Assembly: GCA_958296025.1 (NCBI GenBank)
Contig: OY282430.1
Span: 930,001 to 994,000, forward strand
Direction: 5' to 3'
Source of the DNA: an uncultured Pseudomonadales bacterium
Lineage (GTDB): Bacteria > Pseudomonadota > Gammaproteobacteria > Pseudomonadales > Azotimanducaceae
Length of the DNA stretch: 64,000 nt
Part shown: positions 45,121 to 61,255 of the stretch, in pieces
How positions within the stretch are numbered: position 1 is the stretch's first letter
Layout: every line of letters begins with the position of its first letter
Position numbers and translations under genes: made by a program
Notes under the pieces: generated by a model
Seen by the model: the letters and a program-made list of their open reading frames with translations, nothing else
Database searches by the model: none
What the model was told of the DNA's origin: nothing

Positions 45121-45411
45121 GATAGCCCACGCCATCCCTCTGGTAGGGGGAATGTTGTCGCTCATTGCATGGTGGATGCGGACTATCGCCGTCACCTCCA
45201 CCGTTGAAAAGTAAGGCGGCTGTTGGGTCAGCGTCACGCACCCTAACTGCAAGGCCACCGGGCGCTGGTGCCTGGACTTCGCCCCCCGACATAGGCCGGA
45301 TTGGGAGTTCGCAAGGGCTCCCGGCCTGCTCGATGCCTAGCCCGCCGTCCCTAGGCGTGAGACGCAGCGCTCAGCGAACCTCAATGCGCGTCCCAAACGC
45401 CCCGAGGTTCG

Positions 45412-45560
45412 CCAAATGTAGAACCACGACCACATCGCCCTGCTTGGGGAGCACCCAGACGCCTGATGGCAGTGAGCCAACACCACCGATCACAAAAATA
45501 CACCCATAAAACCATAATCAAAGATTGCTTTTTGGCGTCAATGACGCTACTTTCCTGCCC
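45412..45560 (+). repeat. Upstream repeat of the ATPase cassette, copy A (FkbM tail remnant)
   Basis: This stretch and the one at 53462-53612 are near-identical. Each begins with a remnant of the 3' end of an FkbM gene: ACATCGCCCTGC...CCAGACGCCTGA, compare the end of the gene at 51762. It continues through an AT-rich segment to the ATPase start, ending in the palindrome GCGTC-AAT-GACGC (45535-45547). It probably carries the promoter of the ATPase. Confidence 0.75.
45535..45547. promoter_or_regulatory. Palindrome GCGTC-AAT-GACGC before ATPase copy A
   Basis: A perfect 5-bp-arm palindrome lies 13 nt upstream of the ATPase ATG, at the end of an AT-rich tract (CATAAAACCATAATCAAAGA). It also occurs at 53587-53599, at the same distance from the second ATPase. 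A repressor site or a hairpin in the leader are both possible. Confidence 0.5.
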
Positions 45561-47000
45561 ATGCACCGCCATCAGCTACAGAATCTACGGAATTGGCTGC
45601 AAGGCACCCGACGCAAGCCCTTGGTCATCCGGGGGGCGCGGCAGGTGGGCAAGTCCACGCTGGTGGAGCTGTTCTGCCAGTCCGCCGGCCTGGAACTCGT
45701 GGCCGTCAACCTGGAGCGGCATCCCGACCTCGCCGGGGCGTTCGCCGAATCCCAGCCGGGCCGCAACGACCCGGCCGCCCTCCTGAACCTCATCGGCGCT
45801 GTGGCCGACCGGCCCCTGTCGGGCGGGAGCCTGCTGTTTCTGGACGAAATCCAAGCCGCCCCCCATGCCCTCGCCTCGCTCCGGTACTTCCTGGAGGAAT
45901 TGCCGGAGCGTCCCGTCATCGCCGCCGGGTCCCTCATGGAGTTTGCGTTGGCCGAGCACAGCTTCCCCATGCCGGTGGGCCGCATCGAATACCTGCACCT
46001 TGGGCCGATGACGTTCACCGAATTCTTGAAGGGCATCGGCAAGGAGGGCCTCGCCGAGGCAATCGAAACCTTCGCATGGGGCGGAGACGGTGCGCCGCCA
46101 ACGCTGCATCCCTTGGTTCACGGGCGGCTGTTGGAGGCACTGCGCCTGTACCGCTTCATCGGCGGAATGCCGGAGGCCGTCAGAACCTACGCCGAATCGG
46201 GAGACCTGCTGGCCGTCAGCGCCGTTCAGGCCGGCATCATCGAAACCTACCGGGACGACTTCCCCAAATACGCCGCCCGCCGCGACCTCGCCAGAATGCT
46301 GCGCGTGTTCAACTTCGCGGCCCGCCAAGTGGGGCGCAAAGTGAAGTACAGCAACGTCTCTCGTGACGACCAAAGCGCGACCATCCGCCGGGACATCGAC
46401 CTGCTGGCCATGGCGCGGGTGGTCGCCAAGGTCACCCACAGCCACTGCTCGGGGCTGCCGCTGCAGGCCGAATTGAAGGAGGCGGCCTTCAAGCTCATCT
46501 TCCTGGACATCGGCTTGATGAACGCCCTGTGTGGCTTCAACTGGCAGACCATCAGAGCGCAGACCGAGTTGGAACTGATCAACGCCGGCCCGGCGGCGGA
46601 GCAATTCGTCGGCCAGCACCTGCTGCATCTCCTTGCCGAACGGCCAAACCGGGAACTGACCTACTGGCTGCGCGAAGGGCGCTCCAACAACGCGGAGGTG
46701 GACTATGTGGCCGAATTCAGCGGCCACATCCTGCCCATTGAAGTGAAGGCGGGCAAAGCCGGCGCCCTGAAGTCCCTGCATCAGTTCGTTGCCGAAAGGC
46801 AAGCGCCCCTAGCTGTCCGCTTCGACGCCAACCCACCAGCGCTGCAAACGGTGCAGGCGGAGGTGCGGCGGCGCAGCGGCGTCGAGCGGGTACGCTACCA
46901 ACTGCTGTCCCTGCCGCTCTATCTGGTGGAGCGGCTGCCGCAGATCATTGCTGGGCTGACGCCGTCGGTCCGATCCTCTCCGCGGACCTCTCGCCGCTGA
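45561..47000 (+). CDS. AAA ATPase with DUF4143, copy A
   Basis: The 479-residue protein has Walker A GARQVGKST at 25-33 and Walker B LLFLDEIQ at 91-98. The AAA_14 segments PERPVIAAGSLMEFAL and GRIEYLHLGPMTFTEFL follow. The C-terminal DUF4143 region ends with AEVDYV...LPIEVK at 378-396, the D...ExK layout of PD-(D/E)xK folds. The ATG at 45561 is chosen because both copies share it, though the frame stays open 12 codons upstream. The protein is about 96% identical to copy B at 53.6 kb by eye, and the last 640 nt match exactly. The role is unknown. Confidence 0.85.
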   Translation: MHRHQLQNLRNWLQGTRRKPLVIRGARQVGKSTLVELFCQSAGLELVAVNLERHPDLAGAFAESQPGRNDPAALLNLIGAVADRPLSGGSLLFLDEIQAAPHALASLRYFLEELPERPVIAAGSLMEFALAEHSFPMPVGRIEYLHLGPMTFTEFLKGIGKEGLAEAIETFAWGGDGAPPTLHPLVHGRLLEALRLYRFIGGMPEAVRTYAESGDLLAVSAVQAGIIETYRDDFPKYAARRDLARMLRVFNFAARQVGRKVKYSNVSRDDQSATIRRDIDLLAMARVVAKVTHSHCSGLPLQAELKEAAFKLIFLDIGLMNALCGFNWQTIRAQTELELINAGPAAEQFVGQHLLHLLAERPNRELTYWLREGRSNNAEVDYVAEFSGHILPIEVKAGKAGALKSLHQFVAERQAPLAVRFDANPPALQTVQAEVRRRSGVERVRYQLLSLPLYLVERLPQIIAGLTPSVRSSPRTSRR

Positions 47001-47049
47001 ACACGGCGCCTTGCAGCCCTTGGCTGCCGGTCCCCTTGGGGTGTCTTTC

Positions 47050-47163
47050 GCCGCCGTATTGGTCAAGGGCTAAATGTCTTGGGTAAGGCAGTCCGTAGGC
47101 AAGCCATCCAATAGGGGTGTGAAAATCCACATGGGGCGATTGGCCCACGCGCCTGCGGTGCAT
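47050..47163 (-). pseudogene. Fragment of the large membrane-protein family (N-terminal part)
   Basis: The minus strand reads GQSPHVDFHTPIGWLAYGLP and then LALDQYGG. This matches residues about 50-95 of the full-length family member at 59.3-61.0 kb. Everything between this piece and the ATPase copy A end has been deleted, so ATPase A sits next to an internal fragment of its usual downstream neighbour. Confidence 0.75.
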
Positions 47164-47241
47164 GGCGTCTCCTGGGACGACCTGCCGCTTGCGGAGTTGG
47201 TGCGCCGCCGCAGTGGCGGGAATTGACGGTTCGTCAGAGCC

Positions 47242-47646
47242 TTATGCAGGTGTTATGCGTTTTCCGAACCACTCGACCAGATCGTCGAACAAAAGCCGCT
47301 TCTGAGCGACGTCCATTATCATGTTCTCCACTTCGACCTGAATCGACCCGTTCTTTACGGGAGGCACCAACCGATAGCCGCTTCTCTCCAGCAGCAGGTT
47401 TAGGAGAATGAGGGTCGTGCGTTTGTTCCCGTCCGCGAAACCATGGTTTCCCACCATCGACTCGACAAGAGCCGCTGCCTTGCGACGGATGGCACGGTAG
47501 TAACCGGAGTAGGGACGGGCGATGGCGGATTCGATCGAACCGAGGTTGATGACGCCCGGTAGTCCGCCGAAACCCAAGGCCTGCTCGTGCGCGGCCAGCG
47601 CGTCGTCGAGCGTCAGCCGGTAGTGGTGCCGCCTACCTTTCGGCAA
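47242..47646 (-). CDS. Doc (death-on-curing) family toxin
   Basis: This 134-residue Fic/Doc-fold protein has the motif HGFADGNKRT at 68-77, the HxFxx(D/G)NKR core that phosphorylates or otherwise modifies a target in Doc toxins. LPGVINLGSIESAIARPYSG and RKAAALVESMVGNHGF are family segments. Doc of phage P1 inactivates EF-Tu. A partner antitoxin is not obvious: the only upstream gene, overlapping by 14 nt, is UDG-like rather than a Phd or AbrB-type protein. Its C-terminal tail might serve, but that is speculation. Confidence 0.85.
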   Translation of the reverse strand: MPKGRRHHYRLTLDDALAAHEQALGFGGLPGVINLGSIESAIARPYSGYYRAIRRKAAALVESMVGNHGFADGNKRTTLILLNLLLERSGYRLVPPVKNGSIQVEVENMIMDVAQKRLLFDDLVEWFGKRITPA

Positions 47647-48718
47647 GTTGCCTCAGGGTCGTACGGTATTTGCCGACCGTGCGAGCCATGATCGCGGCGG
47701 AGTGCGCCGCAGACGCGCCAGCCGCCAATCGGTCGGAGGTTCGTACCGTCGGCGTCCCTGCCCTGCCGCGAGTACGTTGAGGGGCCGTTGAGAGGTGCGT
47801 CGAGTGATTAGCCGCTGTTCGCCCCGCGGCAGGACCGCACCAGTCGATGGGATCGGTCAATGCGTCGTTGATCCGCCCAAGGGGATTCCGCCCAACGGGA
47901 TTTTCGGAGCAGAAAAAATATCGAGGCATGGACGGGTGCCCGCTCTCCACGAAGCGAAGGTTCTCCTCCGGAACGCACAGAGATCTCCCGCGGGCTTCGA
48001 TCCATCTCCGGAGGTTTTTGGCCTCACCGCCGAACAACGCGAAGACGACAGGTCTCGTCGCCGCCTCCTGCACCAACAAGGAAACGATGGCTCTTGTGAC
48101 TGGACGCCATAGCGCCCGGTGCAGCTTTCGCTGTCTTTCGATCGCTTGCCACCGCCCGCCGGCGTCGCACGCGACGCTTATGGTGGGGGTGCGGTTGATC
48201 CAAAGCACGCCTTGCCCTGTCAGGCTCTCAAACATGGACCTAGGGGGCGGTAGCACGACCTGGCCGTTTTGCAACCCGCGCCGAAGTTTTCCTCGACGGT
48301 CGCGGAGACGGTCGCGATCCAGCCCAAGCCCCTCCGCGTTTGGGAGCAGCGCGGCGGCAGCGCAGACCAGACTCAGCAGACTGGGCGTGACGCGACCGGG
48401 CTGCGCCAAATCGTCCATCCATGCGGTCAGGTTGCCTTGCTCGAAAGAGCGACCAGTGGCCCGGTGCGGGTCGGGATACGGATCGTTGCCGATTACGACG
48501 ACTTGCACATCGGGAGGATCGATGCCTTCCAACGCATAGAAAACTCCGCCCGGCCTATGCCGATCCGGCACGATCCGCGCATCCCGATGGAGCAATGCAT
48601 CTCCGGGGACAGCGTCGAAATCCGGCCCCACGCCATGCAGCCTTTCGCGCCAAGCCGCGGAAAGATTGTCCCGCCATCGGTGCAGATACCGCTTCAATTC
48701 GTAGAGCAGACTGGGCAT
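47633..48718 (-). CDS. Uracil-DNA glycosylase superfamily protein with C-terminal extension
   Basis: Within 361 residues the catalytic A motif is VVVIGNDPYPDPHRATGRSF (GNDPYP at 77-82, compare GQDPYH of family 1). VTPSLLSL resembles the substrate loop, LWINRTPTISV the LNxxLTV strand, and SGHPSM near 259-264 holds the catalytic His. Most family-1 active residues are kept but the pattern is divergent. The last 60 or so residues are a low-complexity extension not found in UDGs. It overlaps the Doc toxin gene by 14 nt, an unusual pairing. The substrate could be uracil or a modified base, as some UDG relatives act in phage defence. Confidence 0.75.
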   Translation of the reverse strand: MPSLLYELKRYLHRWRDNLSAAWRERLHGVGPDFDAVPGDALLHRDARIVPDRHRPGGVFYALEGIDPPDVQVVVIGNDPYPDPHRATGRSFEQGNLTAWMDDLAQPGRVTPSLLSLVCAAAALLPNAEGLGLDRDRLRDRRGKLRRGLQNGQVVLPPPRSMFESLTGQGVLWINRTPTISVACDAGGRWQAIERQRKLHRALWRPVTRAIVSLLVQEAATRPVVFALFGGEAKNLRRWIEARGRSLCVPEENLRFVESGHPSMPRYFFCSENPVGRNPLGRINDALTDPIDWCGPAAGRTAANHSTHLSTAPQRTRGRAGTPTVRTSDRLAAGASAAHSAAIMARTVGKYRTTLRQLAER

Positions 48719-49224
48719 CGTCCATATCCTCGCCGTTCGGTCGATATTTTACACGACTCGGAGGAATTGCGTCGTGAACTCGCGTGGCTCAATGGAAGCC
48801 GCCCGCACATTGACGGAATCCGGCCGCGGGCGGCCCACGCGAGCAGGGCAAGGGCCGGATGGCGGAAAAAACACAGCGCTAGTCCCCGTGTAGCTGAATG
48901 GCCGCGCCTAAGCCGCCTGCTTTGGTCGTCAATCCCCGCCTGAATCAGCATCTTGAACATTGCCGGGTGCCGACGCCTCGGCGGGCGCGGGGCAGGGGCA
49001 GCCCTTCGGCTGCGTTGGCGGGTAATGGCCTCCTGGGTTTTCCTCCGGTTCCAAGTGTAGGCACCGCTTGCCCAGTGGCGCGTAAAGGTAGCATGAATGG
49101 GAACGACTGCCTGTTGCCGGCTGCTGCTGGTGGAGGTGGGCGGGCGCCTTTCACAGACCTTGCGAAAGCAGCGGGGCTGTACAATGGGTGCCCTTAGCCA
49201 ACTGGCAGGCCGAAGGACCCAAGC
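48719..49224. other. Intergenic region with copy R1 of a dispersed repeat
   Basis: 506 nt separate the divergent UDG-like and glycosyltransferase genes. Positions 49001-49100 hold repeat copy R1, ending AAAGGTAGCAT. The remainder contains no convincing reading frame and no tRNA, although GTGTAGCTGAATGG at 48889 faintly resembles the start of one. Confidence 0.5.
49001..49100. repeat. Dispersed repeat R, copy R1
   Basis: This copy shares with R2-R4 the order GGCGGGxAxTGGCCTC, GGTTCC, a GC-rich middle, and AAAGGTAGCAT, but is the most diverged. Like the others it lies upstream of a minus-strand gene, here the UDG-like gene about 280 nt away. Confidence 0.55.
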
Positions 49225-51762
49225 ATGGTGCGCCTTTCAGCGATTCCGTATCCAAAAGTTGCGGTGCTTCTCGCATTTGGGTTCTTTGCGCTGGTGGGGG
49301 TTCTGGTTGTCGATGACTACGGGGTGGCCTATGACGAATCCGTGCAGCGGGCATTGGCCGCCGTAACCGCCGCCTACATGATCGGGGCCGATGACGCCCT
49401 GCTGCAGCATCGTGACCGAACCTATGGCGTGGCGTTCGAACTGCCGCTGCTGTTCTTCGAACTCATGCTGGGCTTGGAGGATTCAAGAAGGGTCTGGCTC
49501 ACCCGCCATCTCCTAAGCCATCTGTTCTTTTTGGTGGGCGGGTTGTTCTGCTATTTGCTGGTGCGCCGGATGTGTGGAAGCCGGCTCCTGGCGCTGGTCG
49601 CCATGCTCCTGTTCCTGCTGCATCCGCGCCTGTATGCGCACTCCTTCTTCAACACCAAGGACGTGCCTTTCCTCAGCATGTTCATGATCGTCCTGTTCCT
49701 GATTCATCGGGCGTTTAGAAAGGACGATTTTGCTGCCTTCATCTCCTGCGGCATGGCCGTTGGGGTTCTCACCAACATCCGCATTCTGGGCGTGGTGCTG
49801 TTCGCCGCCGTCCTCGGCCTGCGTTTGCTCGACCTGCTCCAAGCCGCCGATTGGCGCGAAAGGAAACGCATCCTGGCCACTGCCGGGCTATTCACTGCGG
49901 CAAGCACGCTCATGCTTTACGCCACTTGGCCTTACCTTTGGAGCGACCCGTTTGGACACTTCGCCGAAGCCTTTTCGCGCATGGCGGACCATCCGGAAAT
50001 GATCCCTTCCCTGTTCCAAGGGGAACCAGTTGTCGGCAAAGAGGTGCCGCCCCACTACGTTCCGGTTTGGCTTTCCATCACCACTCCACCCGTCACGCTT
50101 CTGCTCGGCGGCATCGGCTTGTTGGCCGTCCTCCGCCGAACCTTCGCGCAGCCCAGAGCCGCCCTGAGCAACGGCGCACTGAGATTCGAGCTGCTTCTAA
50201 TAGCCTGCTTCGCGCTTCCTGTGGTTGCCGTCGTTGTTTTCGACTCCAACCTCTACAACGGCTGGCGGCAGCTGTACTTTCTCCATGCGCCGCTTGTCCT
50301 GCTGGCGAGCATTGGACTTCACCGGCTGGCCGGTGCCCAAGGAAACGCGGCGTTGCGAATAGGATCATGCGGCTTGGCTGCCGTGGGCTTGGTCTCCACC
50401 GCTGCATCAATGGCGTTCCTGCATCCCAACCAAGCCATCTACTTCAATTTTCTGGTGGATAGAAAGACGCCGGAGCGCCTTCGCACGCAATATGCCATGG
50501 ATTACTATGAGACGACGTTTCGTCAGGGGCTTGAACACTTGCTTGAGCGCCACCCTTCGTCCCCTGTTTACGTCGATATGGCCTTTAATGAATTGAATTC
50601 AAGCATTCTGCCGCAAGCGGACCGGCAAAGAGTGCATGTGAGTTTCGATCAGCACGCGGACTTCCACATCACCAACCACCGTCCACATACGGCCTCCGGC
50701 GCAGTGCTGAAGACCTTGGCACCGCTCATTTACGATCTCAAAATTTACAACAACACCGTCATGAGCGTGGCGGCGCTTGATCTTTCTTTGGTGCCCGAGG
50801 TTGCCATTGAGCCGTATCGGGACCTCTACCGATCGGCAATGGCTGGCCCGCTTGTCGTCCGCTCCAACTACAACGTCCACCTCAAAGAACGCTTGCTGAC
50901 TTACGCGAAGGATCAATGCCGCCCGATGGACACGAGGCCACTGTTCATCCTGCACATCGAACCGGCCGACCGGGATGATCTTCCCGATCATCGCAAACCG
51001 CTCGGTTTTGAGGACTGGGAATTTCGTTTCGGTGCCCGCGGGGTGCGGTTTGACGGCAAGTGCCTAGCGACCATGCCCCTGCCGGATTACGCTATCGCCC
51101 GCATCACTATTGGCCAAGCCATCTCCAGCACCGACAAGTTCGGCAGCCGCAACCGCTGCAACCTTTGGAGGGAAGTCATCCTGTTCAACGAGCAACAGGA
51201 AGCCCGGCAATGCGCGACGGGTTCGCCCGCCTGCGCCGGCCACCCGCCGATGCCGCCGTGCCGCCGAGGCGAATTGTCCAAGGTCTATCGGGAACTGCGC
51301 CACAACATTGCGCTCAATGATCTGAATAACATCGTCCCTCTAAGGTATGCAATTGGACCGGAGGTTGGAGTCGTGGAAATGAGCCCTCCCCTATACGGGT
51401 ACTACGAGGGCGGCGTGCAAATTGGCACCGGCGGGGAGCAAGCGGAACTTCGGACCTTGGACAGCTTCGGGTTCGAGAACGTTTCGCTGATCAAGATCGA
51501 TGTTGAGCAGCATGAGAACCAAGTGCTGGCCGGGGCCGCGAACCTCATTCGCGCAAGCAAGCCCGCCATCTTGATCGAGATACTGGGCGGAAAGTCTTAT
51601 CCGGGCGCACCGAATTGGTGGTACCACAACCCGCCGGCTTCACCGCAGGATTTGGAGAGGGTCCACGCCACTTGGAGAGTGATCGAGGCGTTCGGCTACA
51701 AGGTTCGCCCGGTGTCGAGCCACGACTGCATCGCCCTGCCTGTGGAGCGCCCAGACGCCTGA
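49225..51762 (+). CDS. GT-C glycosyltransferase fused to a truncated FkbM methyltransferase
   Basis: The 845-residue frame joins two parts. Residues 1 to about 665 are a GT-39/ArnT-like membrane glycosyltransferase. It has an N-terminal helix, then DDYGVAYDESVQRALA with the acidic pair, about ten helices, HSFFNTKDVPFLSMFM, and a soluble tail ending SRNRCNLWREVILFNE. From about 684 it becomes the second half of an FkbM methyltransferase (LSKVYRELRHNIALNDLNN, SLIKIDVEQHENQVLAGAAN, ILIEILGG). The SAM-binding VDVGAxxG part that should precede it is missing. A deletion between two genes would give exactly this, so the methylase half is probably inactive. Confidence 0.75.
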   Translation: MVRLSAIPYPKVAVLLAFGFFALVGVLVVDDYGVAYDESVQRALAAVTAAYMIGADDALLQHRDRTYGVAFELPLLFFELMLGLEDSRRVWLTRHLLSHLFFLVGGLFCYLLVRRMCGSRLLALVAMLLFLLHPRLYAHSFFNTKDVPFLSMFMIVLFLIHRAFRKDDFAAFISCGMAVGVLTNIRILGVVLFAAVLGLRLLDLLQAADWRERKRILATAGLFTAASTLMLYATWPYLWSDPFGHFAEAFSRMADHPEMIPSLFQGEPVVGKEVPPHYVPVWLSITTPPVTLLLGGIGLLAVLRRTFAQPRAALSNGALRFELLLIACFALPVVAVVVFDSNLYNGWRQLYFLHAPLVLLASIGLHRLAGAQGNAALRIGSCGLAAVGLVSTAASMAFLHPNQAIYFNFLVDRKTPERLRTQYAMDYYETTFRQGLEHLLERHPSSPVYVDMAFNELNSSILPQADRQRVHVSFDQHADFHITNHRPHTASGAVLKTLAPLIYDLKIYNNTVMSVAALDLSLVPEVAIEPYRDLYRSAMAGPLVVRSNYNVHLKERLLTYAKDQCRPMDTRPLFILHIEPADRDDLPDHRKPLGFEDWEFRFGARGVRFDGKCLATMPLPDYAIARITIGQAISSTDKFGSRNRCNLWREVILFNEQQEARQCATGSPACAGHPPMPPCRRGELSKVYRELRHNIALNDLNNIVPLRYAIGPEVGVVEMSPPLYGYYEGGVQIGTGGEQAELRTLDSFGFENVSLIKIDVEQHENQVLAGAANLIRASKPAILIEILGGKSYPGAPNWWYHNPPASPQDLERVHATWRVIEAFGYKVRPVSSHDCIALPVERPDA

Positions 51763-51771
51763 TCAATGATA

Positions 51772-52110
51772 TCTGCCGTTTCCTGCTTGGTGGGAAACTT
51801 GGGAACCATCAACCACTTTGCATCCCGGAACGCCAGACTCCGTTCTGCCGCAGTGTGGCGGTTGATGTGTCTTCCCACATGAAAAATGGACAATACACTT
51901 TTAGGCGATGGTGCGCCAAGAAGCATCGAAAAGGGGTTGGCATAATCCGCCGTCGAAACGACTTCATTGCCGGCACCGGCCTCCTTGAGCAGCGCCAAGC
52001 CCGTTCTCAGGGTGCGCAGGTATTCGGTGTTGGAAAGGTCCATGTGGCTGTGTAGAGGATTGCGTCGCGACCACAGGAGGACTTCCGATGGAGGTGACAT
52101 GTGCGGATTT
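51772..52110 (-). pseudogene. C-terminal fragment of the large membrane-protein family
   Basis: The minus strand reads SPPSEVLLWSRRNPLHSHMD, then LGAPSPKSVLSIFHVGRHIN and AKWLMVPKFPTKQET. This matches the soluble tail of the family members at 55.2-56.9 and 59.3-61.0 kb almost word for word. The membrane part and the last 30 or so residues are missing. It abuts the 3' end of the FkbM fusion, where the cassette would normally have an ATPase gene. Confidence 0.85.
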
Positions 52111-52265
52111 TGCTGAACAATTACCTCGCACAGCGGCATGTGCAGCACTTATTCCCGCCAATTCCCAAGGCCGCATGGTAAAACGGGCTTGCGGCGTCGG
52201 CCTCCGATGAGTCTCTCAACAGCCTCGGACGGGAACGTACTGGCGACGCCAGAGATGGGAAAAGG

Positions 52266-52781
52266 TCACAAATCTATTGGCTTGAACTCTGCCCAGCCTT
52301 GTTTGTAGAGCAGGACGCGGGCGACTGCCGAAATCGGCAAGTCGCCGAGATGGGCTGCCTCAATGATGGGCATCAGGGTGTGCTTATGGAGTTTGTCTTC
52401 GTTCCACGTCTTCAAGAGTTTTTCCCCTGAAATGAACGCATCCGAAACCTTTTCTCTGTCGATTTCGAGCCACACGGCAGAGTCCCACCCACATTGGCTG
52501 CAGATTGGCACGAAAGTCTGCCATGTGCTAAGCGTATACTCATGATCGTATGTGTCGGGGCAGAAATCATGGAAATCAAACAAACTGACTCCGCCCAAAT
52601 GACGCACACAAGGATACTTGATCGGTCCTTCCCCAGTATGCCATCGCTCACCATTGGGGACAAAGTTTTCGGGAGGGTTCACCAAAATCGAGCCATATTC
52701 CCGAATCCCCTCGAACCGGGATTTCGATGTGGTGTGCCACAATTTTCCTTGCAGTGTTTTGAGAGCATCTGTCGGCGTCAA
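52266..52781 (-). CDS. Hypothetical protein, TTG start
   Basis: This 171-residue protein begins at TTG 52781, with TAGGAGG six bases before it and an in-frame stop just upstream, so the start is well supported. GKLWHTTSKSRFEGIREYGS near the N-terminus resembles the opening of DarT/ART-like ADP-ribosyltransferases (xHTTxxxNLxxIxxxG). HLGGVSLFDFHDF follows. No Glu catalytic motif is certain. The tail has SAVWLEIDREKVSDAFISGE. Local GC is nearer 50%, below the rest of the window, which suggests recent arrival. I do not recognise the family. Confidence 0.6.
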   Translation of the reverse strand: MTPTDALKTLQGKLWHTTSKSRFEGIREYGSILVNPPENFVPNGERWHTGEGPIKYPCVRHLGGVSLFDFHDFCPDTYDHEYTLSTWQTFVPICSQCGWDSAVWLEIDREKVSDAFISGEKLLKTWNEDKLHKHTLMPIIEAAHLGDLPISAVARVLLYKQGWAEFKPIDL

Positions 52782-53461
52782 GCTCTGCCTCCTAGTCGAA
52801 ACATTCCCTCTTGGATTACGGGAACAAGTGCAGTTTCGTGAAACGCATTGTAAATCACTTGGATTTGTGCCGCATCACCTGTAAGGGACCACCACCTTTC
52901 GGAAATTTGAAGAAGAGTGCGTCCCGATTGGGCAGTGTGCGTGTTCGGAAAGCCCATGTGGTTAGTTAGTCAACTATGGTAAACCGAACATGCGTATCTC
53001 CGCAAAGGACCGGGCCTTTTGTCGCGAGATTCGGGAGGATAAGAACGACCGCCCCACCGTTGAGCGGACCCACAGAGGGCAAGCGAGCGCCCATGCACCC
53101 TCAGCGGCAGGCCACTGGGACAAATCCGCACTATCAAGGTAGAATACCTGCTTCATGGCATGGGCCAACCATCAAGTGCGCCTATTCTCAGCAAACGCAA
53201 GCAAAAGGGCAGTATTCCCAGCGGGCTTATTTATGGTCGTCTTCCCGACGCCGCCCTTCATATTGATGAGACTTACTGCAACCGTCACTTCCGCGACCCA
53301 CTGCATCTGTAGCGCCCATTAAACGCCGCTATGTTCAGGCGGTCAAGAAATTTGACCGAGGTGCGGTCCGGAAAGTGTCGCACTTGCCCCTAGGGGCTAT
53401 ATTCGGGATTTCGGTCCGTTCGTGGCAATCCGCGATATAGGCCGGATTGAGAGTTTGCAAT
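52782..53461. other. Gene-poor AT-richer stretch with a ParA remnant
   Basis: No intact gene is seen here. An open frame without an ATG, GTG or TTG start runs from about 52967 down to a stop at 52778 and would overlap the TTG gene start, but it cannot be supported as a gene. The only recognisable piece is the ParA fragment at 53172-53306. The stretch up to 53461 contains short sequences shared with the upstream side of ATPase copy A. Confidence 0.45.
53172..53306 (-). pseudogene. ParA-type ATPase remnant (Walker A segment)
   Basis: A 44-codon frame reads VAVSLINMKGGVGKTTINKP, carrying the deviant Walker A (KGGVGKTT) of ParA/MinD/Soj proteins at the normal distance from the start. After TALLLAFAEN it stops at 53172. 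A complete ParA would continue for more than 200 residues. It is probably a leftover of a plasmid- or phage-like element. Confidence 0.7.
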
Positions 53462-53612
53462 CGCCAAGTGTAGAGCCACGACTACATCGCCCTGCCTGTG
53501 GCGCGCCCAGACGCCTGATGGCAGTGAGTCAACATGAACGATCACTAAAACATACCCATAAAATCATAATTAAAGATTGATTTTTGGCGTCAATGACGCT
53601 ACTTTCCTGGCC
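53462..53612 (+). repeat. Upstream repeat of the ATPase cassette, copy B (FkbM tail remnant)
   Basis: This matches copy A at 45412-45560. It opens with the 3' remnant of an FkbM gene (GAGCCACGACTACATCGCCC ... GACGCCTGATGGCAGTGAG) and ends with the palindrome GCGTC-AAT-GACGC at 53587-53599, just ahead of the ATPase. Confidence 0.75.
53587..53599. promoter_or_regulatory. Palindrome GCGTC-AAT-GACGC before ATPase copy B
   Basis: It is the same 13-bp palindrome, at the same 13-nt distance from the ATG, as at copy A. The flanking AT-rich tract differs at several bases between the copies, while the palindrome is unchanged. Confidence 0.5.
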
Positions 53613-55052
53613 ATGCACCGCCATCAGCTACAGCATCTACGGAATTGGCTGCAAAGCGCCCGGCGCAAGCCCTTGGTCATCCGGGGGGCGCGGCAGGTCG
53701 GCAAGTCCACCTTGGTGGAGCTGTTCTGCGAGGCCGCCGGCCTGGACCTCGTGGCCGTCAACCTGGAGCGGCATCCCGACCTCGCCGGGGCGTTCGCCGA
53801 ATCCCAGCCGGGCCGCAACGACCCGGCGGCCCTCCTGAACCTCATCGGCGCCGTGGTGGACCGGCCGCTGTCGGGCGGGAGCCTGCTGTTTCTGGACGAA
53901 ATCCAAGCCGCCCCACATGCCCTCGCCTCGCTTCGGTACTTCCGGGAGGAATTGCCGGAGCGCCCCGTCGTCGCCGCCGGGTCCCTCATGGAGTTTGCGT
54001 TGGCCGAGCACAGCTTCCCCATGCCGGTGGGCCGCATCGAATACCTGCATCTAGGGCCGATGACGTTCACCGAGTTCTTGAAGGGCATCGGCAAGGAGGG
54101 CCTCGCCGAGGCAATCGAAACCTTCGCATGGGATGGAGAAGGCGCGCCGCCAAGGCCGCATCCCTTGGTTCACGGGCGGCTGTTGGAGGCACTGCGCCTG
54201 TACCGCTTCATCGGCGGAATGCCGGAGGCCGTCGGAACCTACGCCGAATCGGGAGACCTGCGGGCCGTCAGCGCCGTTCAGGCTGGCATCGTCGAAACCT
54301 ACCGGGACGACTTCCCCAAATACGCCGCCCGCCGCGACCTCGCCAGAATGCTGCGCGTGTTCAACTTCGCCGCCCGCCAAGTGGGGCGCAAAGTGAAGTA
54401 CAGCAACGTCTCTCGTGACGACCAAAGCGCGACCATCCGCCGGGACATCGACCTGCTGGCCATGGCGCGGGTGGTCGCCAAGGTCACCCACAGCCACTGC
54501 TCGGGGCTGCCGCTGCAGGCCGAATTGAAGGAGGCGGCCTTCAAGCTCATCTTCCTGGACATCGGCTTGATGAACGCCCTGTGTGGCTTCAACTGGCAGA
54601 CCATCAGAGCGCAGACCGAGTTGGAACTGATCAACGCCGGCCCGGCGGCGGAGCAATTCGTCGGCCAGCACCTGCTGCATCTCCTTGCCGAACGGCCAAA
54701 CCGGGAACTGACCTACTGGCTGCGCGAAGGGCGCTCCAACAACGCGGAGGTGGACTATGTGGCCGAATTCAGCGGCCACATCCTGCCCATTGAAGTGAAG
54801 GCGGGCAAAGCCGGCGCCCTGAAGTCCCTGCATCAGTTCGTTGCCGAAAGGCAAGCGCCCCTAGCTGTCCGCTTCGACGCCAACCCACCAGCGCTGCAAA
54901 CGGTGCAGGCGGAGGTGCGGCGGCGCAGCGGCGTCGAGCGGGTACGCTACCAACTGCTGTCCCTGCCGCTCTATCTGGTGGAGCGGCTGCCGCAGATCAT
55001 TGCTGGGCTGGCGCCGTTGATCCGATCCTCTCCGAGCTCCTCTCGCCGCTAA
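53613..55052 (+). CDS. AAA ATPase with DUF4143, copy B
   Basis: The 479-residue protein is the near-twin of copy A, with the same Walker A (GARQVGKST), Walker B (LLFLDEIQ) and C-terminal EVDYV...IEVK. The first half differs at scattered positions (for example LFCEAAGLDLV against LFCQSAGLELV), while the last 640 nt are identical to copy A. This is a pattern expected of gene conversion or a recent exchange. The cassette is intact here: upstream repeat, ATPase, then a convergent membrane-protein gene. Confidence 0.85.
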   Translation: MHRHQLQHLRNWLQSARRKPLVIRGARQVGKSTLVELFCEAAGLDLVAVNLERHPDLAGAFAESQPGRNDPAALLNLIGAVVDRPLSGGSLLFLDEIQAAPHALASLRYFREELPERPVVAAGSLMEFALAEHSFPMPVGRIEYLHLGPMTFTEFLKGIGKEGLAEAIETFAWDGEGAPPRPHPLVHGRLLEALRLYRFIGGMPEAVGTYAESGDLRAVSAVQAGIVETYRDDFPKYAARRDLARMLRVFNFAARQVGRKVKYSNVSRDDQSATIRRDIDLLAMARVVAKVTHSHCSGLPLQAELKEAAFKLIFLDIGLMNALCGFNWQTIRAQTELELINAGPAAEQFVGQHLLHLLAERPNRELTYWLREGRSNNAEVDYVAEFSGHILPIEVKAGKAGALKSLHQFVAERQAPLAVRFDANPPALQTVQAEVRRRSGVERVRYQLLSLPLYLVERLPQIIAGLAPLIRSSPSSSRR

Positions 55053-55193
55053 AAGCGGAGCCTTGCAGCCCTTGGCCGCCGGCCCCCCCCCTGGAGTGTC
55101 TTGCGCCGCCGCCCCGGTCGGACCTGGGCGCCGTTCGACTTCGGCGGGAAGCTGGCATCAAAGAGTGCGGACTATTTTCAGATGGCTATCTTC

Positions 55194-56903
55194 TCACTTC
55201 CCATGAAATTGTCGGTTCAGCGGTTCATCGACGCGCCGCAGAAGCCGCCAGTGCTCGTTCTCCGCTGTCTGCTCCCAAGCGGCTTCTAGATGGGCGGCCT
55301 GCACCTCCAAAACGAGCGCCGTCGTTTCCTGCTTTGTAGGGAACTTGGGAATCATCAGCCACTTTGCATCGCCGAACACCAGACTCCGGTCTGCCGCGGT
55401 GCGGCGGTTGATGTGTCTTCCCACATGAAAAATAGACAATACACCTTTAGGCGATGGCGCACCAAGAAGCATCGGAAAGGGGTTAGCATAATCCGGTGTC
55501 GAAACGACGTCATTTCCTGCGCCGGCCTCCTTGAGCAGCGCCAAGCCGCTTCTCAGTGTGTGCAGGTATTCGGCGTTGGAAAGGTCCATGTGGCTGTGTA
55601 GAGGATTGCGTCGCGACCACAGGAGGACTTCCGGTGGAGATGACATGTGCAGAACTCCCTCCTCAAAAGCGTTGGCGCCGCCCAAGCCCCCGAACCAAGC
55701 CCCTTCCATACGCGGCAGCCCGGATGCGCAGCTAGGACAAGCGCCTTGTGAGGCCATGAGGAACAGCACTGCCGCCAACAGTTGACGTAGGAAAGAGGGA
55801 AGCAGAAAGAGGCACATCGCCGCCATGATCAGCCGTCGATGACCGGATCTGCGAGGACAGACGGTGGCCATCCAAACGAAAAGGACTGCGAGGGCAAATA
55901 GAAAGGACGGATTGTTTGAGTCTTGGCTTGCCAAGACAACGCTGGTTGCCGCCACATATGCTATCAGCAGCATGTCATGCAGCCGGGGGCGTTGGTGCAG
56001 CGTAGCAACTCCGCAGGCCATCCCGGCCAAAACGAGACCATTGAGTGCCGTGATAAAGACGTCTAGGATGCCGGGCCTTTCATCGTGGGCCTCGCTGCCC
56101 GGCTCAGCCGCCATCTTGAGGGTGTGCAGCAGGTCCCCGAGGTAGTCGTCCACCCAACCGCCCGCCGCTTGGACCCCTAGGACCGCAAGAAGGAAGACAG
56201 CCACTCCCCAAGAGCCTGTGCGCCGAAAGCGTCCCATCGCCACGCCGAACGTCAGAACGAAGACAAAGCCAGCCGCGAAGTAGGTTGCCTTCACAAAGAA
56301 CAGCAGGGATAACAGAGTCCCAATGGCTGCTGAGTCCAGCTTCCCTTGGAAGGCACCCTGCACTTTCCCATCCGACTTCGCCGCTGGCAAACCAAACAGA
56401 AATAGTGCCGCTAACAGCGCCGGCCCCCATCGGTTGTAGAGCATGACTTGGGAAACGGCGAAGCCCGAATCGCCAAATGGCCAAGGCACGACGACCACGG
56501 CAAACAGCGCCGAGAGCATCAGCAGGCCCATGCTAGCGGGAGTGCGCCCATGCAGCGCCACCGCCGCCAACGGCAGCAGGATTGCGAGCATTGCGACGCT
56601 TCCAAACTCGATGGCACCGCCGAATTGGCCGAGGGCTAGGTATCCCAAGTAAGGCAGCCCATAGGCGAGCCAACCGAAGGGAGTGTGGAAATCCACATAG
56701 GGCGACTGACCCATGTACAGGCGATGCATCCCGTCAAAAAAAGTGAAGATGTCGTGTGGGGCTTGAGCAGTGTAAGTAGCCTTGGGCAGCACGAACAGGA
56801 CGATGGCTAAGGCGAGCAGACAGCCTGTCGCTATTAAAAGCATCGGCCAAGGACAATCACCTCCTAAGTGAGTGGTTGGTTTAGGCACAGCTAGGGAGCT
56901 CAT
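55194..56903 (-). CDS. Large membrane protein, GT-C-like (family member 1)
   Basis: The 569-residue protein has 10 or so membrane helices and a C-terminal soluble part. Near the start is GQSPYVDFHTPFGWLAYGLP, an acidic extracytoplasmic loop resembling the DF...P motif of GT-C glycosyltransferases. GGWVDDYLGDLLHTL follows, and the tail has YANPFPMLLGAPSPKGVLSI and ENEHWRLLRR. GT-C enzymes use lipid-linked sugars; the family here is unnamed. The ATG at 56903 overlaps the stop of the upstream relative (ATGA), so the two are translated together. Confidence 0.7.
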   Translation of the reverse strand: MSSLAVPKPTTHLGGDCPWPMLLIATGCLLALAIVLFVLPKATYTAQAPHDIFTFFDGMHRLYMGQSPYVDFHTPFGWLAYGLPYLGYLALGQFGGAIEFGSVAMLAILLPLAAVALHGRTPASMGLLMLSALFAVVVVPWPFGDSGFAVSQVMLYNRWGPALLAALFLFGLPAAKSDGKVQGAFQGKLDSAAIGTLLSLLFFVKATYFAAGFVFVLTFGVAMGRFRRTGSWGVAVFLLAVLGVQAAGGWVDDYLGDLLHTLKMAAEPGSEAHDERPGILDVFITALNGLVLAGMACGVATLHQRPRLHDMLLIAYVAATSVVLASQDSNNPSFLFALAVLFVWMATVCPRRSGHRRLIMAAMCLFLLPSFLRQLLAAVLFLMASQGACPSCASGLPRMEGAWFGGLGGANAFEEGVLHMSSPPEVLLWSRRNPLHSHMDLSNAEYLHTLRSGLALLKEAGAGNDVVSTPDYANPFPMLLGAPSPKGVLSIFHVGRHINRRTAADRSLVFGDAKWLMIPKFPTKQETTALVLEVQAAHLEAAWEQTAENEHWRLLRRVDEPLNRQFHGK

Positions 56904-58690
56904 GATTGCGACCGGCCGCTTGTGGACCCGTCGGAACGACGCAGCAGCAGCCAGTGTTCGTTCTCCGCCACTTGCTTCCACTCAGAGGCAAGGCGCTCGG
57001 ACTGAACGTCCGCAAGCAGGCGGTTCGACTCCTGCTTGTATGGAAAGCGGGGCACCATAAGCCATTGCGCGTCGCCGAAGACCAGATTCGGGTCGGCCGC
57101 GGTTCTGCGGTCCACCTGCCGGTTGACGTAGAAGCTAAATAGAACGCCTTTGGGTGACGGAGCACCGAGGAGGGCTGGAAAGGGATTGGCAAAGTCGAGC
57201 GTCATGACGCGACCTTCTTCAGCGCCCTCGGCTTGCAGCAGCGCAATTCCCGTTCGCAGGGTTTCGAGATACTCTGATGTTGAAAGGTGCGCGGAGTTCA
57301 GCGATCCATGTTTGCGCGACCAATTAAACACGTCCGCTGGGCTTCTCCACCGCGGGACACCCTCGGCGAAGGCGTTTACCATACGGCTCGGCCCCCCGAA
57401 CCAAACGCCTTCCATCCTTGGCAGATCCGCGGCGAACTGGGGAAACCCGCCAGACGTCCCCAATGCGAAGACGACGCTTGCCAAGGCTTGCCGCAACAGC
57501 GTGGGAAGCAAGTGCATCACCATTGCGAGCAAAGCCAGCCGCCTAACGGTGGACTTGGGGGGACACTCGGCGGCCAACCGAACAAAGAAAGCGGTAAAGA
57601 CGAACATAACTGATGGATAGGCGGCGTTCTGCGTCATGACCGCCGTGCAGGCAACGGTGCTATACGCTGCATAGAGCGCACTGCGCGGAGACAGCCGCCC
57701 CGAAAATGCGGCAGCGGCACAGACCACGGCGACCAAGGCGATGTCGCCATATGCAGCGAAGATAACGTCGGAAGCAGCCAGGGAGGTGAACCCTCCGTCC
57801 TCTGGATTCGCGAAGCGGGCGACTTCGATGGTGCGAAAGATGTCCAAAGCGTAGTCATCCACCCAGCCGCCGATAGCCTGCACCCCCAGAATGCAGGCCA
57901 TGCAGATGGCCAGCCCCACACAAGCTGCCCGCCTAAACTCCCCCAGCGCAGCCCCGAATAGAACAACGAAGCCCAAGCCCACGACGAAGTGGGTAATCTT
58001 TACGAAGAACAGCATGGAGAGCAGAGCGCCGATGGCGGTGGCGTCAAGGAGGAGCCGCCGACCGCCTTCGGTCGCCTTGGGCAGCCCGAACAGCAGGATG
58101 ACCAAAAGAAACCCCCACCCCCAATGGTTGTAGTGGAGGCCTGGATCCGCATACCAGCCCGGCTCTCCCATCCTCCAAGGTGCGGCCACGATTCCGAAGA
58201 GTGCCAATAAAACGAAAACGGATGCGCCAGTGGGCGCCCGGCGCGAGAGAGCAGTGACAGCCAACGGTAGAAGTGCCCCAAGCATGAGCATGTCAGCGCA
58301 CTCCAAGGCACCGGCGAACCCGCCTTGCGCCATGCGCCCAACGTGCGGGAGCCAAAAGGCCAGCCATCCCATGGGCGCATGGAAGTCAACATGGAGCGTC
58401 TGGCCTCCGTCCATGCGGTGCATCAGGTCCGCGAACTGGAAAAAATCCCCTGGTGCGATGGTGACGTAAGTTGCTCCCGGTCGGACGAAGACCACCCAAT
58501 CCAGAGCGAGAAGCGCAACGGACAGCAGCGCCAAGAGAAGCGGGGAGCTTGCCGTCGGCGGCAAGGCTGACGCTGAGGCTTGCTTTAGAGTGCGCCGGCG
58601 GGACTCCGCGTCTCCGAACCACTCACGGGCAGTCAGGCCGTCGATCGCCGCTGAAATCAGCGTTTTGACCATCGCAGGGCGTTGCAGCAT
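56900..58690 (-). CDS. Large membrane protein, GT-C-like (family member 2)
   Basis: The 596-residue protein is a more distant member of the same family, with GQTLHVDFHAPMGWLAFWLP, GGWVDDYALDIFRTI, FANPFPALLGAPSPKGVLFS and ENEHWLLLRRSD. The frame stays open to 59038, but the extra 116 codons are Pro/Arg-rich and cover repeat R2, so the ATG at 58690 is preferred. It fits the size of the other members; MVKTL at 58672 is possible. It is the first gene of a pair with member 1. Confidence 0.7.
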   Translation of the reverse strand: MLQRPAMVKTLISAAIDGLTAREWFGDAESRRRTLKQASASALPPTASSPLLLALLSVALLALDWVVFVRPGATYVTIAPGDFFQFADLMHRMDGGQTLHVDFHAPMGWLAFWLPHVGRMAQGGFAGALECADMLMLGALLPLAVTALSRRAPTGASVFVLLALFGIVAAPWRMGEPGWYADPGLHYNHWGWGFLLVILLFGLPKATEGGRRLLLDATAIGALLSMLFFVKITHFVVGLGFVVLFGAALGEFRRAACVGLAICMACILGVQAIGGWVDDYALDIFRTIEVARFANPEDGGFTSLAASDVIFAAYGDIALVAVVCAAAAFSGRLSPRSALYAAYSTVACTAVMTQNAAYPSVMFVFTAFFVRLAAECPPKSTVRRLALLAMVMHLLPTLLRQALASVVFALGTSGGFPQFAADLPRMEGVWFGGPSRMVNAFAEGVPRWRSPADVFNWSRKHGSLNSAHLSTSEYLETLRTGIALLQAEGAEEGRVMTLDFANPFPALLGAPSPKGVLFSFYVNRQVDRRTAADPNLVFGDAQWLMVPRFPYKQESNRLLADVQSERLASEWKQVAENEHWLLLRRSDGSTSGRSQS

Positions 58691-58859
58691 CGTTGGGAGT
58701 GGCAACTGACCCTTTGCGTTCGGATGCCAATTGGGCCGCCAAGGCCCGGACCCAAGCCTCCAATTCCGCGGTGCGGGCCGGTGCTTACCGATTGGCGGCT
58801 TCCGCTCGTTGGCGGGCGGTGCCGGGTGACAGGGGCCAAGGACGCCGCGGGCGGGCTGG

Positions 58860-58980
58860 GAGTGCCGCTTCGTTTGGAATGGGCGGGCTGTGACTTCATG
58901 GCTGGTTCCTGAGGTTTGGGGCGCGGGTGCCGCTTGCCTTGCTGCGGGAAAAGATAGCATAGCTGAAGGGGAGCAGGCCT
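58860..58980. repeat. Dispersed repeat R, copy R2
   Basis: Aligned with R3 at 62321-62434 it shares GGCTGGTTCCT, GCGCGGGTGCCGCTT, CTTGCTGCGGG, TAGCATA and TGAAGGGGAG with few differences. It lies upstream of the minus-strand member 2 gene. On that strand it contains TATGCTA, a possible -10 box. Confidence 0.7.
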
Positions 58981-59026
58981 TCCTGCTGCCAGTCAAGGGC
59001 ATGGTAGCCGGCACGGTCGCGTCGAT

Positions 59027-59240
59027 TGTACCTGCCACTCTATCTGGTGGAGCGGCTGCCGCAGATCATTGCTGGGCTGGCGCCATCGGTCTGATCGTCT
59101 CCGCGGTCCTCTCGCCGCTGAAAGCGGCGCCTTGCAGCCCTTGGCTGCCGGTCCCCCTGGAGTGCCTTGCGCTGTCGCCCCGGTCAGACCCAGGTGCCGT
59201 TCGACTTTGGCGGGAAGCTGGCATCAAAGAGTGCGGACGA
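59027..59240 (+). pseudogene. 3' remnant of a third DUF4143 ATPase plus its downstream spacer
   Basis: The frame reads LPLYLVERLPQIIAGLAPSV and stops, exactly as at the ends of ATPases A and B. It is followed by GCCGCTGAAAGCGGC (a hairpin) and about 150 nt nearly identical to the spacer after copy B (55040-55190). The rest of the ATPase is gone. Confidence 0.85.
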
Positions 59241-59259
59241 TTTTGAGATGGCCCTCTTC

Positions 59260-60981
59260 TCACTTCCCATGAGCTTGGCGGTTCAGCGGTTCATTGACGC
59301 GCCGCAGCAGCCGCCAATGCTCGTTCTCCGCGGCTCGCTCCCAAGCAGCTTTCAGGTGGGCTGCCTGCACCTCCAAAATAAGCGCCGTGGTTTCGTGCGC
59401 AATGGGGAATTTGGGGATCATCAGCCAATTTGCGTCCCCAAACACAAACACTTGGTTTGCCGCAGAGTGGCGGTTGATGAACCTTCCCACATGCAAAACG
59501 AGCATCGCGCCTTTGGGCGATGGGGCGTCAAGCAGCACCGGGAAAGCGTTCATGTAATCCGCTGTCGCCACGGCGTCGTTTCCGTGGCCGGCCGCATCGA
59601 GCAGCGTCAAGCCTGTTCTCAGGGTGTGCAGGTATTCTGCGTTGGACAGGTCCATGTGGCTGTGGAGGGTGTTGCGGCGCGACCACAGGAAGGCGTCCCG
59701 CGGAGATGGCATTTGTGGAACCCCGGCTTCAAAAGCGTTGGCGGCCCCCAGCCCGCCGAACCAAGCTCCTTCCATGCGCGGCAGCCCGGATGCGCAGCCA
59801 GGGCAGGCGCCATGGGCGGCCATGAGGAACACCGCGGTCGCCAGCAACTGGCGGGAGAATGCGGGCAGCAGGAATATCCACAAACCGGCCATGACCAGCC
59901 GCCGATGGGTGGAGCCGCGGGGACAAAGAGCCGCCATCCAAATAAATAGGGCCAACAGAGCGAATAGGACGTTCGGAGCGCTGGAGTTTTGGGTTGCCAA
60001 GAGGACGCAGGATGCCAAGATGTATGCGGCAAACAGCAGGTCCTGCAACTGCAGCCGCTTGGCCAGCCCCGCTACTCCGCAGGCCATGACGGTCAAACCA
60101 AGCGTGCTGAACGTCGCGTACAGAACACCTTGGATGCTGGGCGGCTCATCTTGGGCTTCCGCGCCAGGTTCAGCCACCACAGCAAAGGTGCGCAGCAAGT
60201 CCCTAAGGTAGTCGTCCACCCAACCACCGGCCCCTTGGACCCCCAGAACCACAAAAAGAAAAACAACCAATCCCCAAGCGCCTGTTCGCCGAAAGTGCCC
60301 TAAAGCCACGCCGAACAACAGGACGAAGACAAGGCCAACGGCGAAACAAGTCGCTTTTACAAAGAACAGCAAGGACAGCAGGGCGGCGATGGTCGCTGAG
60401 TCCAGCTTCCGCCGGAAGGCGCCTTGCCCTTTCCCATCCCTCCCCGTCAGCGGCAGGCCAAATAGCAACAGCGCAGTCAACAGCGCCCAGCCCCATCGGT
60501 TGTAATGCCCAACTGGGGTGGAGACCAGGCCAGATTGTTCTAGCGGCCAAGGCACGGTGACCAAGGCGAACAGCGCACAAAGCAGCAGGAGACCCAGCCC
60601 GGTAGGGGCGCGGCCATGCAGCGCCACGGCCGCCAACGGCAGCAGGATTGCGAGCATTGCGGCGCTGCCGAACTCCAAGGCGCCGCCGAACTGGTCAAGG
60701 GCCAGATATCCTAGGTAGGGCAGTCCGTAGGCCAGCCCTCCAATAGGGGTGTGGAAGTCCACATGGGGCGACTGGCCCATGCCCATGCGGTGCATGGCGT
60801 CAAAATAGCTAAAGACGTCGTGCGAGAACTTGGCGGTATAGGTGGCCGCCGGCAGCACGAACAGGACGATGGCCAAGGCGAGCAGGCAACCTGTGGCCAC
60901 CGCCAGCGTCGGCCACGGGCAATCGCCTCGGCCCGCGGTTCCTAACTTGGACATTTCTTCAATGACTCCCCCCAAGCCCAT
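59260..60981 (-). CDS. Large membrane protein, GT-C-like (family member 3)
   Basis: The 573-residue protein is closest to member 1, with GQSPHVDFHTPIGGLAYGLP, GGWVDDYLRDLLRTF, SHMDLSNAEYLHTLRTGL and ENEHWRLLRR. Both share the N-terminal CPWPxL...ATGCLLALAIVLFVLP helix. The frame extends to 61038; ATGs at 60981 and 60954 are the sensible starts. Upstream lie a Uma2 remnant and repeat R4. The family may add or modify a sugar on a surface polymer; this is inferred from topology only. Confidence 0.7.
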   Translation of the reverse strand: MGLGGVIEEMSKLGTAGRGDCPWPTLAVATGCLLALAIVLFVLPAATYTAKFSHDVFSYFDAMHRMGMGQSPHVDFHTPIGGLAYGLPYLGYLALDQFGGALEFGSAAMLAILLPLAAVALHGRAPTGLGLLLLCALFALVTVPWPLEQSGLVSTPVGHYNRWGWALLTALLLFGLPLTGRDGKGQGAFRRKLDSATIAALLSLLFFVKATCFAVGLVFVLLFGVALGHFRRTGAWGLVVFLFVVLGVQGAGGWVDDYLRDLLRTFAVVAEPGAEAQDEPPSIQGVLYATFSTLGLTVMACGVAGLAKRLQLQDLLFAAYILASCVLLATQNSSAPNVLFALLALFIWMAALCPRGSTHRRLVMAGLWIFLLPAFSRQLLATAVFLMAAHGACPGCASGLPRMEGAWFGGLGAANAFEAGVPQMPSPRDAFLWSRRNTLHSHMDLSNAEYLHTLRTGLTLLDAAGHGNDAVATADYMNAFPVLLDAPSPKGAMLVLHVGRFINRHSAANQVFVFGDANWLMIPKFPIAHETTALILEVQAAHLKAAWERAAENEHWRLLRRVNEPLNRQAHGK

Positions 60982-60999
60982 GCTTGCGCCCCAAACTCT

Positions 61000-61090
61000 C
61001 CCGCCAAGTGAACTCCGACAACACCCGCATCTGCCCAAGAGTATCAGCCATGGGGGAGCCGTCCGAGCTGAGATGGGCGGATCCTCCGCC
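61000..61090 (-). pseudogene. Uma2-family remnant (N-terminal piece)
   Basis: The minus strand reads GGSAHLSSDGSPMADTLGQM and then RVLSEFTW. SSDGxPMAxxxxQ is the opening signature of Uma2 (DUF820) restriction-fold proteins, seen again in the remnant at 62030-62240. Only about 30 residues remain. Confidence 0.5.
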
Positions 61091-61149
61091 TAGCTGTCCG
61101 GCGGGAGCAGAGGGCATTGCGACCGGACAGGTCGGGAGCACCGTTATGT

Positions 61150-61255
61150 CTGTTAGCGGGCTGGAGCCTCGTGGGCAGGTTCTCCGATCGCGAGCGCGGA
61201 CGTCTGCTGGGCCGCTGTTGGCAAAGGTAGCATAGTTGAGGGGGCTGCTTCCCCA
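61150..61255. repeat. Dispersed repeat R, copy R4
   Basis: This shorter, diverged copy contains GCCTCGTGGGCAGGTTCTCC and CAAAGGTAGCATAGTTGAGG. It is placed upstream of a minus-strand Uma2 remnant, as is R3. Confidence 0.55.

Follow-up and report, generated by a model that had tools for sequence, protein, structure and literature searches.

A repeated ATPase and membrane-protein arrangement in an Azotimanducaceae genome as a probable cluster of converting and decaying paralogues

The question raised by this locus was whether a recurring gene arrangement, an FkbM 3' end followed by an AAA_14/DUF4143 ATPase gene and a convergent membrane-protein gene (MP), represents a cassette that moves or acts as a unit. 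The stretch analysed (the window, 64,000 nucleotides) covered positions 930001-994000 of one 3.9-Mb contig (OY282430.1, assembly GCA_958296025.1) of an uncultured Pseudomonadales bacterium, whose genome was labelled G000. A first-pass annotation had described the same three parts in the same order twice, and in part twice more, as a novel mobile or recombining unit. It was found that the repeats were real but had been over-read as a new mobile cassette: the region is probably a duplicated, converting and decaying cluster of paralogues, not a functional cassette.

A same-genus genome of a sister species, G005, was used as the main comparison. The class sample held 369 genomes, and the family sample, used for the MP and ATPase searches, held 200.

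Repeat copies and the exchange between them

Four copies were delimited by self-BLAST and designated A (45.4-47.2 kb), B (51.70-52.11 kb), C (53.5-56.98 kb) and D (59.03-61.04 kb). Copies A and C (45409-47056 against 53461-55111) were 95.8% identical over 1,651 columns, C and D (54958-56863 against 59027-60929) 77.2% over 1,909 columns, and B and the membrane gene of copy C, MP2 (51777-52107 against 55323-55653), 90.6% over 331 columns. Shorter matches linked the FkbM ends at 51705-51763 and 53461-53519 (91.5% over 59 columns) and the ATPase tail and spacer of A (46906-47051) with those of D (59027-59172; 91.1% over 146 columns). The edges of the repeats differed between the copies and did not coincide.

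Within the ATPase genes, A and C were identical over a tract of 639 bp (46320-46958, plus strand, corresponding to 54372-55010 in C at an offset of 8,052 bp), which lay in a more divergent context. Along this tract, G005 differed from both copies at 2-11 sites per 100-bp bin. In a three-way comparison of A, C and G005 with 135 polymorphic sites, A and C agreed at 30 sites in a row (46328-46888), and such a run was reached in none of 100,000 shuffles (permutation p <= 1e-5). In the same shuffle test no comparable run was obtained for A and G005 (p 0.20) or for C and G005 (p 0.09). Homologous recombination acts at this locus: A and C exchanged sequence recently, by conversion or by crossover, and in this respect the recombining unit proposed earlier was borne out.

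Copy A was also partly mosaic, its nearest relative outside the tract being D or G005 according to the block. Over the 93 nt of its ATPase tail and spacer it was closest to D (88.2%), with C and G005 at 83.9% each, whilst its FkbM end (93.0%; 57 nt) and its MP piece (95.9%, against 86.8% to MP4) were closest to G005. The two marks looked for in a converting cluster were thus found, an over-long identical tract between diverged copies (A and C) and conflicting nearest relatives (A). In bacterial genomes generally, adjacent paralogues undergo gene conversion and recombine unequally. The locus resembles their products in its identical tract within diverged context, its partly mosaic copies, its remnants and a short-word deletion; no specific difference was noted, the genes themselves being unusual.

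The copies retained different parts. Copy A comprised an upstream remnant of 31 bp (45284-45314) and an FkbM 3'-end remnant (45405-45467), both recognized on the plus strand by sequence comparison, and an intact ATPase gene (45561-47000, plus strand) supported by the list of open reading frames (ORFs), Pfam and the alignment of relatives. The Met at 45561 is its likely start, as in the relatives; the mechanical ORF begins at 45525. The 5' part of the membrane gene was reduced to 121 bp (47049-47169, minus strand, residues about 80-120), deletion-joined to the spacer according to self-BLAST and the G005 comparison. Copy B (51701-52107) joined an FkbM end to an MP tail (residues 441-557 of MP4) and had no ATPase, and self-BLAST confirmed the earlier description of this place. 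The MP end (about 35-38 codons) and the spacer are missing from B as well, which spoke against reading it as a clean empty site.

Copy C began with an upstream block common to G005 and an FkbM 3'-end remnant (together 53252-53519, from the G005 comparison); a ParA-like Walker A motif on the minus strand of the block was labelled by eye. It continued with an intact ATPase gene (53613-55052, plus strand; ORF list, Pfam and PADLOC), a spacer (55053-55193) and the intact MP2 (55194-56867, minus strand), whose mechanical ORF reaches 56981. The intact MP3 (56900 to about 58570, minus strand), 45-47% identical to MP4 and MP2, lay between C and D. Copy D held an ATPase tail with one in-frame TGA and the spacer (59027-59172, plus strand; self-BLAST), followed by the intact MP4 (59260-61038, minus strand; ORF list), exactly the parts that had been noticed there before. 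The convergent ATPase/MP order was therefore complete in C and present as remnants in A and D. The statement that three parts occur twice was not right, because no more than 121 bp of the membrane gene survive in A; the FkbM part of A and C was likewise a mere remnant of 59-63 bp.

The spacer had been singled out for a conserved hairpin. Its sequence was indeed conserved between C and D, but its folding did not surpass that of dinucleotide-shuffled sequences (z = +1.06 for C, -0.31 for A and -1.26 for D), and the hairpin was rejected as a functional element. Scans for promoters (6 found, 4.0 expected on average) and for terminators (16 found, 17.6 expected) were close to chance. An RNA element was rejected as well, since no Rfam match in the window reached gathering scores.

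In G005 a single close ATPase unit was found, which carried the 5' flank of C and the 3' flank of A. The MP deletion junction of A was also present in G005. As read by eye, this junction falls in a CGCCGCCG-N4-GGTC word that occurs in the spacer of C and in MP4, and because the word is present in both, the deletion looks to be of the short-repeat type.

The ATPases and the membrane-protein family

The ATPases of copies A and C matched the Pfam families AAA_14 (73.1 and 70.7 bits, respectively; cut-off 27 bits) and DUF4143 (99.4 bits each; cut-off 28.1 bits). With the copy C protein, a full-length match of 481 bits (residues 13-476) to a PADLOC model of PDC-S01 (PDLC04788) was obtained. Walker A, Walker B and an E-x-D...EVK motif were kept in all ten aligned ATPase proteins. 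Residues E379, D381, E394 and K396 were invariant in these ten, and the predicted fold was weak (pLDDT 56). In a fold search with this model the 50 best-listed PDB matches were chains of AAA+ type, none of them at E<=0.001. In PMC12988326, PDC-S01 is described as a fusion of an ATPase with a PD-(D/E)-X-K member and is ranked fourth among the most common defences across all prokaryotes; for most such candidates, the same paper gives experimental validation as pending. The nuclease-like tail suggested by the first-pass annotation was upheld at the level of motifs. We inferred that these are PDC-S01-type ATPases and putative nucleases, standing alone, and candidates only for phage defence. The likeness to PDC-S01 lies in the full-length match of copy C, in both domains of both copies and in the motifs; the difference is that two near-identical copies lie here 8 kb apart inside a decaying cluster.

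ATPase matches at E<=0.001 were recorded in 40 of the 200 family genomes, and 21 of the 40 have an ATPase place at least 57% identical (three of those 21 through partial matches only). Eleven phage records hold distant relatives, with at most 33% identity among the eight listed, and a plasmid DNA search with 45405-47200 gave no match. Fifteen further ATPase loci aligned at the DNA level only within A coordinates 45490-46953, a span that comprises the gene and some 70 bp ahead of its probable start. Four pairs of these loci share the same or almost the same alignment figures and probably represent one genome each, which leaves about 11 distinct loci. In the flanks compared (about 0.6-8 kb) neither an FkbM nor an MP relative was found.

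Two ATPase paralogues shortened in-frame were observed at L022:18253-18720 and L023:11966-12880, in stretches chosen for holding relatives. One of them fuses residues about 13-102 to 392-467, and in the other an unlike N-terminal part precedes the ATPase tail. More ATPase fragments adjoin surface-type genes (gene types assigned by eye) at 745-785 kb of G000.

The MP proteins appear to form an unnamed, constrained family of multi-pass membrane proteins, possibly GT-C-like. The three intact MPs of the window had no credible match in Pfam, NCBIfam or PDB. No Pfam match was obtained at E<=0.01, and at E<=10 there were weak ones only, none at its cut-off, the best being Sec31 (E 0.077) in two of nine members. 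The NCBIfam scan of three MPs returned one match, far under cut-off, and the PDB search one match at E 0.95. The predicted structure was too poor for use (pLDDT 36). Residues D74, R84 and D94 after the first hydrophobic stretch were invariant in nine family members, and these loop residues recall GT-C proteins. Additionally, one MP of the family genome G471 adjoins two FkbM matches on the same strand. The likeness to GT-C glycosyltransferases and PMT-like envelope membrane proteins lies in these residues and neighbours, whereas MP differs in having no recognised GT-C family profile.

MP relatives were found in four of the 200 family genomes (G000, G005, G432 and G471) and in one of the 369 class genomes, namely G000 itself. 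Whole copies, several each, occurred in G000 and G432; G005 held fragments only, at five places, one of which was the remnant of its own unit. A protein search of plasmid records with MP4 and a scan of viral contigs with two short MP patterns found none. All four MP-bearing genomes are single-contig. Several others of the genus are available only as fragmented assemblies, in which MP repeats may have been missed. At least three single-contig family genomes (G434, G456 and G473) were outside the MP matches listed, and possibly outside the sample. The dN/dS ratios were 0.16-0.43 in three ATPase pairs and 0.20-0.40 in nine MP pairs, the latter being rough because dS was near or above 1 for most pairs. 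Both genes look maintained.

Weighing of the explanations

We proposed that an ancestral local order of FkbM 3' end, ATPase and convergent MP was duplicated, and that later deletions would have differed by copy, removing most of MP from A, the ATPase from B, the FkbM body from C and all but the ATPase tail from D. Homologous recombination among the copies, by gene conversion or crossover, would keep the units mosaic. The intact genes would have separate roles, the ATPases as stand-alone proteins and MP2-MP4 as constrained multi-pass membrane proteins, possibly GT-C-like. Several points weigh against this proposal. The same convergent order with a conserved spacer is what a functional pair would show, and both ATPases and three MPs are intact. 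The FkbM end of C shows little preference between B (91.5%) and G005 (91.2%). The mosaic case rests mainly on the 639-bp tract, because the other blocks are only 57-121 nt long and the evidence there is weak. The MP ratios, with their high dS, are rough, and the order of events draws on few genomes with no clean outgroup for the locus.

A Campbell-type insertion was judged a rather unlikely alternative. An 8,052-bp circle (5' flank u, ATPase, MP remnant, uracil-DNA-glycosylase-like (UDG-like) gene and further sequence) would have joined the chromosome by a single homologous crossover, at a locus with the 44.3-kb gene, the ATPase, MP2, MP3 and further genes, or else G005 would represent the reverse, an excision. 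The gene orders fit such an event. In G000 the gene at 44327, ATPase A, the MP remnant and the UDG-like gene are followed further on by u, ATPase C and MP2; in G005 u, ATPase, MP remnant and UDG-like gene lie at 4.24 Mb, and the 44327 gene (PLD-like by eye only, with no NCBIfam match) lies at 1.09 Mb beside an MP3-like fragment without an ATPase. An exchange of flanks is also expected from one crossover in the ATPase, where the 639-bp tract lies, but plain conversion also explains the tract. No circle was seen, and 49.2-53.2 kb had no counterpart in the 20-kb G005 stretch compared, save 47 bp of FkbM end. The private changes on the 5' side were similar (24 in A, 27 in C and 41 in G005 over bins 45400-46300), without the predicted pairing of C and G005; since they add no support, the single crossover stays a rival only.

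The duplicated and converting cluster was further compared with three readings that give the unit a mechanism or function of its own. A genuinely mobile element, such as a transposon or an integron cassette, that carries FkbM end, ATPase and MP was considered very improbable. The order and orientation are repeated, and the nearest insertion-sequence-like copy, a part at 63422-64000, matches one in L022 piecewise at 79-94% identity, the open frame of the latter being taken for a transposase by eye only. However, the edges of the copies differ, and no target duplication exceeding chance was found at nine edge pairs: their longest common words were 4-8 bp, against a random 95% point of 7 bp, and 4% of random pairs reach 8 bp. 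Among the 25 inverted pairs listed, out of 31, none bounded a unit with its two arms, in a search with arms of at least 14 nt at most 2.5 kb apart, which left the 3.5-kb span of C with MP2 uncovered. No transposase family was found among ten proteins scanned, and a unit with shared edges was not found at another site in the genomes examined. For an integron cassette array the Rfam scan of the window likewise brought no match, no search aimed at attC being made. The transposon model was rejected on these grounds, and the mobile unit of the first reading was not supported. No more credible was a functional pair, such as a defence ATPase with a membrane partner. The convergent neighbours in C, with remnants in A and D, and the PDC-S01 match speak for it, but of the 200 family genomes 40 matched the ATPase and only four MP, and the convergent orientation is not that of an operon. 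The closest ATPase of G471 (70%) lies at 4.54 Mb, far from the MP matches of that genome at 0.22, 2.81 and 3.46 Mb. G432 has a single ATPase match (39% identical), at 3.52 Mb, and MPs at 0.93-0.96, 2.13, 2.29 and 4.14 Mb. No conserved neighbourhood was found outside the genus, and the idea of a conserved ATPase-MP cassette was abandoned, the two genes being apart in both MP-bearing genomes outside the genus, the flanks compared at the 15 other ATPase loci showing no FkbM or MP relative, and the repeat edges not coinciding. Within the reach of these comparisons, this is the outcome that the first-pass annotation had itself named as fatal to the cassette view. It is similarly doubtful, to the same high degree, that the ATPase and putative nuclease is itself the driver, in a homing-like manner, cutting or priming recombination at paralogues and having its own gene converted. 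If so, neighbouring MP genes would be reshuffled, and a slow generator of surface or glycan diversity would result.

Surroundings of the locus and significance

A Fic-domain ORF (47242-47646, minus strand) adjoins copy A, and residues 1-75 alone match in G005. The UDG-like ORF (47633-48718, minus strand) is syntenic with G005, its matches being under curated cut-offs. The FkbM-bearing ORF is a fusion (49225-51762, plus strand; ORF list and profile searches) of PMT_2, an unnamed domain of about 100 residues and FkbM, and the FkbM remnants of A and C repeat the 3' end of this ORF. Its FkbM portion lacks some of the N-end, the NCBIfam match beginning at model position 33 of 143.

The unnamed domain (residues about 531-638) has the pattern ...PC...FFLHV.P.D..DLP...GFDNLDF...LPDY.IARIRTGQ... 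and sits C-terminally in unlike, mostly envelope-type proteins (types by eye), others of which lie at 745-796 kb of G000. When the whole protein was compared with three relatives, 31, 34 and 21 matches resulted, the majority of which cover this domain alone. G000 carries at least 12 such domains (12 of 47 candidates scored), four examples were without a Pfam match at E<=10, and G000 alone matched among the class genomes. The domain has the look of a sorting or binding module that expanded in this lineage specifically.

The 5' regions of Uma2 (PF05685) genes form a local repeat family, with at least 12 matches in G000 including the query (40 of 45 candidates scored) and at least four in G005 (40 of 47 candidates scored). 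In the window they lie at 62052-62542, 58726-59035, 61035-61258 and 48960-49094, and PF05685 matches overlap four of the Uma2 places. By sequence comparison, the remnant at 58726-59035 (minus strand) abuts the truncated ATPase of D and the one at 61035-61258 (minus strand) lies upstream of MP4. Remnants lie upstream of MP3 too, the ORF extension of which upstream of about 58570 contains Uma2-type repeat. The fragments are dispersed over about 979-1017 kb of G000 (including L025) and the matching G005 region. A VapC-like PIN gene (under NCBIfam cut-offs) adjoins Uma2 fragments and is itself duplicated. The picture suggested by these sequences is one of recurrent duplication and decay across the surroundings.

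The region at 44-64 kb contained 8.4 kb of self-repeat, and 18 other 20-kb stretches of G000 ranged over 0-14.4 kb. Sixteen had less, at most 4.3 kb, and two had more (12.0 and 14.4 kb, both 71% GC; L091 and L094 at 2.10 and 2.90 Mb). The region is thus repeat-rich and, because two controls exceed it, not unique in the genome. Self-repeat was 0 at 1-20 kb of the window and 0.2 kb at 20-40 kb. Among the stretches chosen for holding relatives, L022, L023 and L025 (the last overlapping the region by 4 kb) had 6.6-8.1 kb and L021 1.2 kb; five G005 stretches had 0-1.9 kb. The locus looks like a local recombination hot spot.

These results indicate that a puzzling repeated "cassette" can arise by duplication, conversion and deletion among paralogues, and they advise caution against taking local gene order for a system. 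The locus also brings up an unnamed, apparently constrained membrane-protein family, whose finds are limited to four genomes, all single-contig and all from one bacterial family. Further, it offers a natural pair of recombining copies of PDC-S01, a very common candidate, and as yet only a candidate, for defence.

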